10,122 bases of DNA, taken from assembly GCA_902795955.1 (NCBI GenBank), contig CADBNJ010000239.1, positions 1 through 10,122 of the forward strand. Reading direction: 5' to 3'. This document shows, piece by piece, positions 1,024 through 9,149 of this stretch. Both the position numbers and the translations under genes were made by a program. Under the pieces are notes generated by a model that was given only the letters and a program-made list of their open reading frames with translations, ran no database searches and had not been told where the DNA came from. Source of the DNA: Oscillospiraceae bacterium (lineage in GTDB: Bacteria > Bacillota > Clostridia > Saccharofermentanales > Saccharofermentanaceae). Every line of letters begins with the position of its first letter. Position 1 is the first letter of the stretch.

Positions 1024-2421
1024 TTATCCCATATGAAGGACATTGATCAGAAGGAGCCACGCAAGCCCGTAGTATGAGACTACAGCCACAAGGTCATTGA
1101 CCGTCGTGATCAGCGGTCCTGACGCCACTGCCGGATCGACCTTTATCTTCTTGAAGAACAGCGGAATAAGTGTTCCCAAAGCGCTTGATATAAGCATCGC
1201 GATCATGAGCGCTATTCCTATGCATCCGCTTATTGCAAATGCATTTACGGCAGTCTGAGATTTGGCAACAATCAGATATACGCCTACAAAAAGGAATGAC
1301 ATGATACCGAGGATTATTCCGACGCACAGACCGACTCTGGTCTCCTTGAAGACAAGTCCCATCTTCTGCTTCAGCGTCAGGTTCTCATCGGTCAGGACCC
1401 TGATGGTAACGGCGAGCGACTGTGTGCCAACATTACCTGCCATGTCGAGTATCAGCGACTGGAATGCCATGATGAGCGTCAGCTGCGCTATGACATGTTC
1501 GAATACGCCGACAACAGATGATACGATCATGCCGAGGGCAAGCAGTATGAGAAGCCACGGCATTCTCTTGGCCAGGCTCTGCTTCAGCGGTTCCTTCAGG
1601 TCTTCCTCTGCGGTAAGACCGGCAAGTCTTGCGTAGTCCTCACCCATCTCATCATCGACTACCTCGATTATGCTCTGCGCGGTGATAACCCCGAGTATCT
1701 TGTTGTTATTGTCGAGTACCGGAACGAGTTCCTCCGAATAGTCCTTCAGCTTCTCGATACACTCGTCTATATGCTCATTGCCGTACACATACGGGAATGA
1801 TGTGACGATCAGTTCCTCGAGGATCTCAGTGCTCGAAGCCGTTATCAGGTCCTTAAGATCAAGAGCTCCGTAGAACTCCTCCCTGTCATCCACGACAAAG
1901 AGAGTGGATATATTGTCATTCTCTCTGGCCTGTCTGACAAGTTCATTCATCGCCTGCTTGATCGTCAGCTTGTAATTGATGACTATAAAATTCGCCGTCA
2001 TCCTGCTTCCTATCTCATCCTCGTCGTATGAAGCGATGAGCGCGATATCGATCCTGTCCTCGGCATCGAGTGTGTCGATTATGAGCTCGCGCCTCTCCTT
2101 TGGTATCTCTCTGAGGACATTGGCAGCCGTATCCGTCTCGAGTTCGGATATGACCGAACCGGCCTTGCGGATATCCATCTCGCACAGGCACTCTGCCGCA
2201 AACTCCTCGTCCAGATACTCAAAAGATTCTGACAGCTGGATTATGTCGCATACGCGGTACAATTTACGTCTGAGATATACATCCGACTGTTCGAGAACTT
2301 CCGCGATGTCATTCGCGTGATAGTCCTCCAGCCGGTCATGAATAACCTTGGGGGAATAGCTCCCCTTGAGAATACCGATTATCTCATCTGAATAAACGGG
2401 CTTAACTTCCGTCGTTGCCAT
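1024..2421 (-). CDS. mgtE: Magnesium transporter MgtE
   Basis: A 465-residue Mg2+ channel/transporter of the MgtE family, full length. The cytosolic N domain of helical repeats covers about residues 10-135. Two CBS domains follow (about 138-195 and 200-262); in the characterised Thermus enzyme these bind Mg2+ and close the pore when internal Mg2+ is high. From about 285 come five hydrophobic segments. The membrane part carries the family motifs MAGNVGTQS (327-335) and DPAVASGPLITTVND (429-443). Asp443 probably corresponds to the pore aspartate that coordinates Mg2+ in Thermus MgtE (Asp432). The ATG has a strong GGAGG five bases upstream, whose first two bases lie in a hairpin. A short ORF ends 42 nt before the start, so translation may be controlled by the leader as well as by the CBS gate. 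Confidence 0.97.
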   Translation of the reverse strand: MATTEVKPVYSDEIIGILKGSYSPKVIHDRLEDYHANDIAEVLEQSDVYLRRKLYRVCDIIQLSESFEYLDEEFAAECLCEMDIRKAGSVISELETDTAANVLREIPKERRELIIDTLDAEDRIDIALIASYDEDEIGSRMTANFIVINYKLTIKQAMNELVRQARENDNISTLFVVDDREEFYGALDLKDLITASSTEILEELIVTSFPYVYGNEHIDECIEKLKDYSEELVPVLDNNNKILGVITAQSIIEVVDDEMGEDYARLAGLTAEEDLKEPLKQSLAKRMPWLLILLALGMIVSSVVGVFEHVIAQLTLIMAFQSLILDMAGNVGTQSLAVTIRVLTDENLTLKQKMGLVFKETRVGLCVGIILGIMSFLFVGVYLIVAKSQTAVNAFAISGCIGIALMIAMLISSALGTLIPLFFKKIKVDPAVASGPLITTVNDLVAVVSYYGLAWLLLINVLHMG

Positions 2422-2429
2422 ACAAACCT

Positions 2430-2450
2430 CCGTTAAATATTAATTAACGG
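2430..2450 (-). promoter_or_regulatory. Hairpin touching the mgtE ribosome binding site
   Basis: A perfect 7-bp inverted repeat, CCGTTAA/TTAACGG with a 7-nt loop, sits directly in front of mgtE. Its 3' arm contains the first two G of the GGAGG ribosome site (2427-2431). Formation of this hairpin in mRNA would restrict access to the site. It is AT-rich and weak alone, so it is better seen as one element of the leader than as a complete switch. Confidence 0.5.
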
Positions 2451-2533
2451 TATGGCAGATCACTCAATCCTCTCTTGATGAGCATTGCCAACCACTATTA
2501 CTACTGTCACCTGACGGATCCACAATGCTCACC
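2449..2533 (-). promoter_or_regulatory. Structured mgtE leader with alternative pairings
   Basis: In the RNA, the stretch at 2533-2523 pairs with 2487-2477 over 11 bp (GGTGAGCATTG with CAATGCTCATC, one G-U pair). This stem contains the end of the leader-ORF ribosome site and the first base of its GTG start, with the ORF middle in a 35-nt loop. An alternative stem, GGTTGGCA (2493-2486) with TGCCATACC (2457-2449, one bulged base), overlaps both that stem and the hairpin before mgtE. The two states therefore exclude each other, as expected for a switch driven by ribosome position. I see none of the conserved M-box riboswitch sequence. Pairings were found by eye; folding energies were not computed. 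Confidence 0.5.
2464..2523 (-). CDS. 19-residue leader peptide upstream of mgtE
   Basis: A short ORF with a GTG start encodes MDPSGDSSNSGWQCSSRED and ends in TGA. Its ribosome site, AAAGGAGG, is near perfect and 8 nt from the GTG, stronger than many gene starts here, which argues for real translation. It lies in the leader of mgtE, ends 42 nt before its start and is enclosed in an 11-bp RNA stem. The Met-Asp-Pro opening recalls enterobacterial MgtL (MEPDP...), where acidic and proline codons destabilise ribosomes at low Mg2+ and switch on mgtA. The rest of the peptide is unlike MgtL, lacking its basic tail and repeated prolines. The role in Mg2+ sensing is inference from position and opening; the ORF and its ribosome site are seen directly. 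Confidence 0.6.
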   Translation of the reverse strand: MDPSGDSSNSGWQCSSRED

Positions 2534-2550
2534 TCCTTTGTTCGGATTTC

Positions 2551-2585
2551 CTTGACTATTATATCACGGTGTCAAGCCGTGTGTA
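2551..2585 (-). promoter_or_regulatory. Possible -10 box for the mgtE leader and post-stop hairpin
   Basis: Right after the stop of the DUF1015 gene a short inverted repeat (CACGG/CCGTG, 2565-2581) is followed on the minus strand by TATAAT (2558-2563). The hairpin has only five to six pairs and no T-run, so it is a poor terminator. The TATAAT would put a transcript start about 25 nt before the leader ORF, a sensible layout. No good -35 lies 16-18 bp upstream, and a TTGACA at 2570-2575 is only 6 bp away. mgtE may have its own promoter here or be transcribed from the upstream operon. Confidence 0.3.
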
Positions 2586-7164: not shown

Positions 7165-8868
7165 TTACTTCATAGCACCTGAGGCATTAAATGAATATTC
7201 TTTGCCGTCGATCACGTAAGTTCCATCGGAATACATGATGCCGTCTTCGCCAAAATAATACCACTTCTTACTTAACTGTTTCCAGTTGCTGACTACTGCC
7301 GCTCCGCCGGAATTCAGGTAGTACCAGTTGCCGTCTGCATCACTCTGCCAGCCCTTGCCCTTCATGGCTCCGCTTGCAGCAAAAATGTAGATCTGTCCGT
7401 CTATCTTCTGTACTCCCGTAAGCATAAGCGCCGTCTGCTTGTCGAAATAATACCATTTCTTACTTATCTGCTTCCAACCTGTCACCGCTCCGTTACTCGT
7501 GAAGTAATAATAGCTTCCGTCCGTATTCTTATACCAGCCTGTTCCCAGAGCTCCCGATGACTTGAAGTAGTAGCGCACACCGGAGATCTTAACCGTTCCC
7601 GTGGCCATCTTGCCTTCTTTATCGAACCAGTACCACACTTTGCTGATCTGCTTCCAGCCTGTCTGCATTGCTCCGGATTTGTCGAAATAATAATAGTATC
7701 CGCTTATTCTGACCCACCCGGTCTGCATTACGCCATTGGAATCGAAGTAATATGTCTTACCGCCGATATCGGCAAATCCCACGATCTTGCTTCCGTCACT
7801 TCCGATATAGTAATACTTGCCGGAGATCTTCTTCCAGTTGTAAGTGATGCTGGGAGTTGTATCGATCACTACGTCTTTATCAACGGTCAATGCTTCTTCA
7901 CCGGATTCATAATCTCTGTATATAACATAGGTATTTGCAACATACGGATCATGGTCTTCGGTATATGACTTGACCAGATTTGCAGAGTTGCCGATATTAA
8001 GCTCTGTAATGCTATTTCCGCTGCACGACAATGACCTGAGTTTGGGACATTTGCTGATGTCGAGTTTGGTAAGCAGGTTACCGCCGCAGCCCAGTTCAGT
8101 AAGCTCAATGCATTTGCTGACATTCAGTTCTTTCAGTTGATTACCGCCGCAAACCAGCTTGGTAAGCTTTGTGCAGTTGGTGACATTAAGCTCAGCTATT
8201 TGGTTACCGGAGCAATTCAGGCTGTTCAGGTCTCCGCAATTGCTGACATTAATCTTTGTAAGCAAGTTACCGGTACAGTATACACTGTACAATCTGGGGT
8301 TGTGGCTCAGATCCAATTCGGTCAGCTTATCACTGTAACAGCCTAAATGAGTCAGGTTGGAGTTATTGCTGAGATCGATCGACGCAATATTGTTGTCAGA
8401 AATAACAAGATTCCTCAGATCCGTACAGCTGCTCACGTCAACCGACTGGAGTTTATTTCCTTCGAGCTGCAGATACATGAGATTCGAACATCCGCTGACA
8501 TTGACCGCTGTCAGGCTGTTACCTTCACAGCACAACTGGTACAGATCACGAAACATGCTGACGTCAAGTTCTGTCAGCTGATTATACCTGCAAATGAGGC
8601 TGGTGAGTTTTGTAAAGTAATTGACTCCGCTAAGGCTCTTTATCCCCATGCTGCTGCAATCGATCTCCTTAACGTTGCCGATCTCGCCTTCACTCAATTT
8701 CCCGTCTTTGTTCGTATCGCAATTCTCAGAAACATAACTTCTGAAATTCTTATCCGGGAAATTCGTCTCATCGATACTGACATTTGCCGATGCGGCACTC
8801 GCCGTGACGCCAAACGCAGCAACTATGCCCGCCGTCATCATCAACGTGTACCATTTCCTGCTGATCAT
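7165..8868 (-). CDS. Secreted leucine-rich-repeat protein with EF-hand loop and cell-wall-binding repeats
   Basis: A 567-residue exported protein. Residues 1-28 form a signal peptide: basic MISRK start, hydrophobic core, small residues ending TASAASA. At 51-62, DTNKDGKLSEGE is a textbook 12-residue EF-hand loop (Asp51, Asn53, Asp55, Ser59, Glu62), so Ca2+ binding is likely. About ten leucine-rich repeats of 21 residues fill 85-300, many with Cys at a conserved place (LxxLxCxGNxLxELxVSxC). A linker leads to ten or so 20-residue aromatic repeats (about 343-567) of the choline/glucan-binding type (YYYFDKSGAMQTGWKQIS), which typically hold proteins to cell-wall polymers. No LPXTG or membrane anchor is present, so attachment would be non-covalent. 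The LRR part probably binds a host, microbial or glycan ligand; the target cannot be read from sequence. GGAGG lies 7 bp before the ATG. Confidence 0.9.
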   Translation of the reverse strand: MISRKWYTLMMTAGIVAAFGVTASAASANVSIDETNFPDKNFRSYVSENCDTNKDGKLSEGEIGNVKEIDCSSMGIKSLSGVNYFTKLTSLICRYNQLTELDVSMFRDLYQLCCEGNSLTAVNVSGCSNLMYLQLEGNKLQSVDVSSCTDLRNLVISDNNIASIDLSNNSNLTHLGCYSDKLTELDLSHNPRLYSVYCTGNLLTKINVSNCGDLNSLNCSGNQIAELNVTNCTKLTKLVCGGNQLKELNVSKCIELTELGCGGNLLTKLDISKCPKLRSLSCSGNSITELNIGNSANLVKSYTEDHDPYVANTYVIYRDYESGEEALTVDKDVVIDTTPSITYNWKKISGKYYYIGSDGSKIVGFADIGGKTYYFDSNGVMQTGWVRISGYYYYFDKSGAMQTGWKQISKVWYWFDKEGKMATGTVKISGVRYYFKSSGALGTGWYKNTDGSYYYFTSNGAVTGWKQISKKWYYFDKQTALMLTGVQKIDGQIYIFAASGAMKGKGWQSDADGNWYYLNSGGAAVVSNWKQLSKKWYYFGEDGIMYSDGTYVIDGKEYSFNASGAMK

Positions 8869-8949: not shown

Positions 8950-8977
8950 CGGTTCAAGGATAAACAAAAAACGCGAC

Positions 8978-9149
8978 AGATGCTGCGTACGCAGCATCTT
9001 TGTGAACAAAATCGCCTTTGCCGGAACATGTTTGCTGCGTACGCAGTAACTTTGTGAACAAAATCGTCTTTACCTGAACATGTTTGCTGCGTACGCAGAC
9101 TATTTGTTCAGGTTAAATTTTTAGCGGAACATTTACACTGCGCTTGCAG
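8978..9149. repeat. Tandem palindrome array, 52-bp period
   Basis: CTGCGTACGCAG occurs perfectly at 8983-8994, 9035-9046 and 9087-9098, exactly 52 bp apart, with a decayed fourth copy (CTGCGCTTGCAG) at 9138-9149. The first copy is extended to a perfect 22-bp palindrome (8978-8999). The units also share TTTGTGAACAAA (8999-9010, 9051-9062) and AACATGTT (9025-9032, 9077-9084), each itself a dyad. The third palindrome is flanked by ACCTGAACA (9072-9080) and TGTTCAGGT (9105-9113), giving a nested inverted repeat. The array lies 110-281 bp upstream of the surface protein gene and contains no ORF I believe in. On the minus strand the first palindrome is followed 7 nt later by TTTTTTGTTT, so that copy might also act as an imperfect terminator. 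Confidence 0.85.

Follow-up and report, generated by a model that had tools for sequence, protein, structure and literature searches.

The mgtE Leader in the Window

The window, the whole stretch of 10,122 nucleotides that was analysed, carries on its minus strand a gene for the Mg2+ channel MgtE. Between mgtE and an upstream DUF1015 gene lies a gap of 164 nt, and this gap houses a short upstream open reading frame (uORF). The features of the locus are given below, all on the minus strand.

1024-2421, minus strand: mgtE, encoding a 465-aa Mg2+ channel with MgtE_N, CBS and MgtE membrane domains (PF01769, PF03448)
2417-2456, minus strand: hairpin C:D, a predicted fold over the start of the mgtE Shine-Dalgarno sequence (GGAGG, 2427-2431) and the ATG
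2449-2457, minus strand: arm C, TGCCATACC, whose partner is either 2486-2493 or the mgtE start region (sequence and fold)
2464-2523, minus strand: uORF of 19 codons with a GTG start, MDPSGDSSNSGWQCSSRED (read from the sequence)
2477-2487, minus strand: arm B, CAATGCTCATC, distal uORF codons and partner of arm A (pairing and fold)
2486-2493, minus strand: GGTTGGCA, which contributes to the alternative B:C (anti-sequestor) pairing (sequence and fold)
2523-2533, minus strand: arm A, GGTGAGCATTG, from the uORF ribosome site through the first base of the start codon (pairing and fold)
2532-2539, minus strand: Shine-Dalgarno sequence of the uORF, AAAGGAGG, 8 nt 5' of its start
2558-2563, minus strand: TATAAT preceded by TG, a putative extended -10-like promoter element (by eye)

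The uORF starts with GTG at 2523-2521 and stops with TGA at 2466-2464, leaving 42 nt to the mgtE ATG at 2421. A first-pass annotation of this DNA had described a 19-codon frame with a GTG start and a near-perfect ribosome site, ending 42 nt before mgtE, and each of these features is found where it was placed. The 11-bp stem said to hold the uORF is also present, formed by 2523-2533 with 2477-2487 through 10 Watson-Crick pairs and one G-U pair. The second hairpin, expected at the mgtE ribosome site, pairs 2444-2450 with 2430-2436 and then 2450-2456 with 2417-2423, covering the first Shine-Dalgarno bases as well as the start codon. The third pairing joins 2486-2493 to 2449-2457 and overlaps both of the other stems as described. 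The leader as a whole (2405-2555) folds at -42.3 kcal/mol; its 200 dinucleotide-shuffled versions give -31.6 ± 3.5 kcal/mol (z -3.0) and never fold as low. An Rfam scan of the window leader returned no family, M-box (RF00380) included, even at E ≤ 5. This upholds the earlier remark that no M-box is seen here, and no known riboswitch was found over the leader bases.

By eye, no -35 element is seen at normal spacing from the TATAAT. It is noted that an inverted repeat, CACGG-CTTGACA-CCGTG, is found by eye at 2565-2581, just before this TATAAT, and it could be an operator. A search of a phage collection gave no match.

Occurrence of the uORF

MgtE was detected in 70 of the 85 genomes of the genus, with an identity of at least 53% in 51 of them and of 24-26% in the other 19. 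Leaders from 67 of the 70 were used, three fragments (G036, G076 and G079) being left out. Relatives of the uORF precede mgtE in 65 of these 67 leaders, the window included, and in all 22 leaders of the sister genus. In the rest of the order they were found in 13 of 40 leaders (MDADSS, METDSS, MDTDSS and others), and in the class, at one genome per family, in 10 of 40 (MDYDPLP, MDYPDPLP, MDPESLP, MDPEPLS and others), the 40 families being drawn from the best-scoring among the matches listed; 27 and 30 leaders, respectively, are without a catalogued uORF. The catalogue comprises 110 leaders with uORFs of 14-47 codons, and it is defined by peptide prefixes that were picked after the sequences had been seen. 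Paralogous MgtE genes are also preceded by uORFs (MTRSDSDNPRSR, MEFDDSTYRSTN and MDGTDSASSAYRS).

A fixed rule was applied as well, demanding within 280 nt upstream a Shine-Dalgarno match of at least 5, an acidic residue at position 2 and another at positions 3-8. The rule is itself shaped by the genus data, and some of its positives in the class are unlike in sequence. It was satisfied in 50 of 66 genus leaders (L023, which has almost no upstream sequence, was omitted), 21 of 22 in the sister genus, 10 of 40 from elsewhere in the order and 9 of 40 from the class. The corresponding numbers are 0, 1, 0 and 0 on the opposite strand, and 1.25, 0.5, 0.45 and 0.55 expected from shuffled sequences. 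At the phylum level, 28 best-scoring loci of 30 were taken, of which 25 had a usable start and upstream sequence; six of these are positive, with none on the opposite strand, and the positives include MDADSSNG, MDPDSC, MDGDSN and METDPG.

Association with mgtE

ORFs of the rule type are concentrated at mgtE: 47 were found in leaders versus four elsewhere in 428 kb of flanking DNA (both strands, at most 51 loci). A DNA pattern for the uORF gave 44 matches in 42 of the 115 genomes of the family, compared to one match for the reversed pattern. By comparison of positions by eye, 41 of the 44 lie at mgtE leaders; two more are the same leader broken by a contig end (L133, L134), and the last one is inside rho (L132; TIGR00767). 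A second pattern, representing one uORF type, was run against a GTDB collection of 84,980 species and gave 17 loci, at 15 of which an MgtE coding sequence begins directly downstream, no more than 300 nt from the uORF. Among the named species that carry it are Acetivibrio mesophilus, Geosporobacter subterraneus, Geosporobacter ferrireducens and Hathewaya massiliensis. It should be mentioned that three of the GTDB-wide loci (L179, L187 and L183) are the same records as three in the class sample (L161, L143 and L150), which puts the window into the class of Acetivibrio (Clostridia). The acidic uORF was also looked for before corA of the genus as a second target and was found in none of 29 leaders, one of the 30 loci having been omitted for lack of a start at a contig edge. 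A stricter pattern, AGGAGGTGAN{1,10}ATGGAN{1,12}CGAAGTA, was discarded after it gave no match in the 115 genomes, probably because its Shine-Dalgarno part is too strict.

Conservation of the Peptide N-Terminus

The recurring features of the peptides are Asp2, a second acidic residue and, often, a Ser following. Among the 98 catalogued leaders with an acidic residue at position 2, a second one is found at positions 3-9 in 92 and at positions 4-6 in 87, most frequently at position 5 (59 leaders), with position 4 used in 21. The window peptide has D2 and D6 as its only acidic residues. The codons for these residues vary. Asp2 is encoded by GAC in 49 catalogued leaders and by GAT in 45. The Ser of the first acidic-Ser dipeptide, present in 100 leaders, is encoded by AGY in 75 and by TCN in 25, and when Asp2-Ser3 is set aside so that the acidic residue is at position 3 or later, the counts are 49 and 19, or 30 and 14 within the 70 non-redundant leaders. 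Since the codons switch at fixed residues, even between the two Ser families, the N-terminal peptide looks selected. No run of codons for a single amino acid common to the family was seen by eye in the printed leaders.

The first-pass annotation had set as a check whether the frame is kept as a protein, with synonymous changes and a retained Met-Asp-Pro opening. The peptide start is indeed kept, in the form of Asp2 and the second acidic residue, but Met-Asp-Pro is not, and Pro3 is not conserved. Similarly, the synonymous switching holds for the Asp2 and Ser codons, but over the whole uORF an excess was significant in the window group alone (7/10, p 0.006). In that test, which covers the N-terminal and distal codons together from codon 2 on, there was no significant excess in T2 (12/43, p 0.35), g5 (10/36, p 0.17), T1 (9/33, p 0.41) or a mixed YRS set (16/46, p 0.07). 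This is in line with a distal part that may be kept by pairing and not as a peptide.

Pairing at the uORF Ribosome Site

For the analysis of pairing, 70 of the 110 catalogued leaders were retained as non-redundant at <85% identity; the B:C and partner-swap sets consist of 68 of them (L050 and L068 were omitted), and the 22 leader groups are our own grouping. The A:B pairing of the ribosome site and start with distal codons is better than with shuffled B at p ≤ 0.05 in 49 of the 70 leaders, which are related and hence not independent observations, so that a p-value combined over them should not be read at face value. In the window it beats all 200 shuffles. Arm A pairs with its own partner at -20.2 kcal/mol versus -14.1 kcal/mol with swapped partners. 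In every one of the 22 groups a foreign partner does as well as the own one less than half of the time, and in 12 groups less than 5% of the time; only 12 of the 68 leaders rank their own B first among all partners. Short leaders of the MDxDSS type from other families give A:B no support (mean foreign fraction 0.48). The conserved uORF and the A:B hairpin are solid.

Alternative Pairings and Terminators

The four arms, with A:B, B:C and C:D pairings predicted to exclude one another and a uORF running over A and B, have the layout of the trp attenuator. A:B and C:D are clear; B:C is clear in group A1, L003 and L005, and marginal in the window. With folding begun at codon 10, L003 and L005 prefer B:C, whereas the window prefers C:D, by 1.8 kcal/mol over a fold in which B:C is forced. 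In the window group, UGGCA in the uORF is opposite to UGCCA downstream, and a hairpin over the mgtE ribosome site takes the place of the terminator. Covariation of all three stems had been put forward as a check. The uORF hairpin does recur with changed but complementary sequences, but B:C outperforms its shuffles in a minority of leaders (19 of 68), being unsupported in T2 (the largest terminator group), in g5 and in the sister genus.

A terminator-like hairpin precedes mgtE in 18 of 68 leaders by a simple rule, three of them doubtful (L007, L072 and L156; two of these overlap the ribosome site of mgtE, and the U-run of the third is poor). In the A1 group (n = 9, with the structure drawn from one member, L043), the 5' arm of the terminator can pair with the uORF in 88.9% of cells, versus 13-55% for slid versions. 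The covariation score of this B:C pairing is matched by 3 of 500 shuffles, and its two pairs altered on both sides are matched by 96 of 500. The C:D terminator stem of A1 pairs in 94.4% of cells, with no covariation beyond shuffles (53/500). In 27 of 47 non-terminator leaders the ribosome site of mgtE is predicted to be more accessible in the ON than in the OFF folds, which is no overall difference (p = 0.21).

In all six T2 leaders examined (L008, L019 and L030-L033), uORF codons 6-13 have a long complementarity with the stretch from the terminator to the mgtE start, a pairing that encloses the terminator and that was recorded without a shuffle control.

M-box and uORF in Series

The M-box (ykoK) riboswitch, RF00380, is absent from the window and is found upstream of the uORF in some other genomes. 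This is the case for eight of the 15 GTDB-wide mgtE loci (L175, L176, L177, L180, L182, L186, L190 and L191), where the M-box and the acidic uORF follow each other before the same mgtE. Seven of these M-boxes lie within 57-87 nt of the uORF, and that of L177 lies 411 nt from it; the sequenced stretch examined for L183 is too short to judge the presence of an M-box. The same combination was observed before mgtE in L099, L167, L171 and L231. Control of mgtE by Mg2+ in Bacillota through the M-box is described in the available sections of PMC12810186. According to the available part of a review (PMC9276622), several species have mgtE without an M-box.

Proposed Mechanism

Similar arrangements are found before mgtE in many relatives, and therefore a ribosome-based Mg2+ sensor is suggested. 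We propose, with moderate confidence and by analogy to known leaders, that the uORF drives an attenuator of mgtE in which early acidic codons abort or pause ribosomes at low Mg2+. A ribosome would initiate on the strong uORF site. At high Mg2+ it would pass the acidic start of the peptide and sweep arm B, so that C is left free to enter the OFF structure, which in the window would be the hairpin that covers the ribosome site and start of mgtE and in other members an intrinsic terminator. At low Mg2+, ribosomes would abort or pause at codons 2-6, around Asp2 and the second acidic residue. Arm A would then be occupied by new or halted ribosomes and A:B could not form; B would pair with C, and mgtE would be ON. 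If the uORF is not translated, A:B would form, the uORF ribosome site would be hidden and the OFF structure would stay. What we infer in this scheme is that the uORF is translated in vivo, that ribosomes abort on it, that Mg2+ is the signal and that the response runs in the direction given.

The competing explanations differ in what they make of the peptide. In a classical arrest or amino-acid attenuator, pausing would come from charged tRNA, proline supply or the nascent chain (DSxYRS) rather than from Mg2+. YRS is found in 18 of the 110 catalogued leaders, one branch has PLP or PDPLP, and Salmonella mgtP responds to charged tRNA-Pro (PMC8092293, available sections). However, the groups share by eye the acidic residues and Ser alone while their distal residues differ, and the downstream gene is a Mg2+ channel in 15 of the 17 pattern loci, so we regard such an attenuator as rather unlikely. 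Plain translational coupling, with a uORF that senses nothing and merely makes the mgtE ribosome site accessible or fixes a basal level, would suit the leaders in which just 13-15 nt separate the end of the uORF from the start of mgtE (L143, L161, L170, L171 and L173) or in which the uORF overlaps that start (L051, L053, L054, L063 and L099). It is harder to favor, and we consider it clearly improbable, since it leaves unexplained the acidic start, the 18 of 68 leaders with terminator-like hairpins and the A:B pairing over the uORF site.

Stable hairpins with changing but complementary sequences, together with the low folding energy of the window leader, would also be expected of a metal riboswitch made of RNA only, with an incidental ORF. 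The synonymous switching of the Asp and Ser codons, for Ser even between AGY and TCN, argues against it, as does the lack of any Rfam family on the window leader, and this explanation seems very improbable to us. As for a chance ORF in a structured leader, short ORFs preceded by a Shine-Dalgarno sequence are common (515 in the 428 kb), but chance is contradicted by the conservation, the pattern and rule scans and the link to mgtE, and its probability is close to negligible.

Comparison to Known Mg2+ Leaders

The closest known layout to the mgtE leaders would be that of Salmonella mgtQ, an 8-aa uORF before mgtB. In the available sections of PMC8092293, MgtB translation is under the control of three stem-loops that exclude one another, and mutations show that the acidic residues encoded at positions 2 and 5 reduce translation of mgtQ and, via stem-loop 2:3, increase MgtB, destabilisation of the ribosome on mgtQ leading to ON. 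Both systems combine early acidic residues with a strong Shine-Dalgarno sequence, and the stem-loops 1:2, 2:3 and 3:4 reported for mgtQ, the last one hiding the ribosome site of the transporter, resemble those predicted for the mgtE leaders. The differences are the gene (mgtE instead of mgtB), the lineage (Bacillota instead of enterobacteria), the length of 14-47 codons, a uORF that contains arm B, a 5' leader in place of an intergenic region and, in some members, an intrinsic terminator; no sequence homology is claimed. An MgtL-like leader switch had been proposed for the window at first pass. The layout agrees with it, through the match to mgtQ, but the predicted ON pairing of the window is slightly weaker than its OFF hairpin.

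Peptides found elsewhere recall MgtL (MDPDS, MDADSS, MDYPDPLP and METDP), and MDYPDPLP and METDP look alike to it in their acidic/proline N-terminus. The longer start of MgtL reads MEPDPTPLP. In E. coli, ribosomes drop off MgtL, the mgtA leader peptide, at its EPDP motif, and at low Mg2+ this turns on the Mg2+ importer; pausing at acidic residues early in a peptide is described as well (PMC11282234, available sections). A Rho-dependent terminator acts there, in contrast to the ribosome-site hairpin or intrinsic terminator of the mgtE leaders. The window peptide was rejected as an MgtL homologue, having no EPDP and preceding mgtE, not mgtA; its acidic motif (D2 and D6) is weaker than EPDP. That the physics of early acidic drop-off on MgtL and mgtQ would apply to the mgtE uORF is likewise something we infer, by analogy.

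Two other elements are related in part. Narunsky et al. (2024; PMC11109978) proposed an mgtE motif that is likewise a cis element before mgtE with the ribosome site in a stem, but it is known from 32 examples in Thioalkalivibrio only and is a riboswitch candidate, no uORF being mentioned in the available sections. The mycobacterial M-box with a conserved uORF is also a Mg2+ leader with uORFs, but in the available text of PMC12810186 the aptamer controls the uORF, the control is Rho dependent and the downstream gene is pe20. An acidic uORF before mgtE, or its peptide, was not recognised in any report within the open-access literature that was searched, in agreement with the first-pass annotation, which knew of no published description; this is provisional, as subscription papers and preprints were outside the scope. 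What would be new is the lineage and the transporter family for a known type of regulator.

On a wider scale, Bacillota may have a widespread class of such ribosome-based sensors, in which translation of an acidic (or acidic/proline) uORF breaks off early at low Mg2+ and flips a trp-like four-arm RNA to control mgtE by hiding the ribosome-binding site or by intrinsic termination, independent of MgtL/MgtQ and, in some Clostridia, stacked behind an M-box. We think that this generalization could equally prove right or wrong. If true, it would provide a new sequence, RNA layout and transporter for ribosome-based Mg2+ sensing, and sensing via ribosome stability would be a recurrent solution, not an enterobacterial oddity. 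An mRNA with both M-box and uORF would then read Mg2+ twice, by aptamer and by ribosome, and such leaders in named isolates are material for asking why cells would do so. The 110 catalogued natural variants can be used to ask which early acidic sequences destabilise Gram-positive ribosomes.

Additional Observations

A different uORF of about 33 codons, preceded by a Shine-Dalgarno sequence, was observed in ten of the 29 corA leaders (L192-L197, L199, L200, L203 and L206; for example MVFAKVEYATIKTVDSVADIGSNRGGGFGSSGV). It lies about 120-200 nt upstream of corA, and its C-terminus is nearly fixed as RGGGFG(S/H)(S/T)G. This is possibly a second leader-peptide regulator of a Mg2+ transporter.

Elsewhere in the window, palindrome-like stretches recur at positions 8975-9145; they are GCTGCGTACGCAG and variants of it, some of them separated by TTTGTGAACAAAATCG. 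Their Rfam matches are sub-threshold only, and they lie upstream of the gene at 7165-8868 for a protein with LRR and choline-binding repeats.
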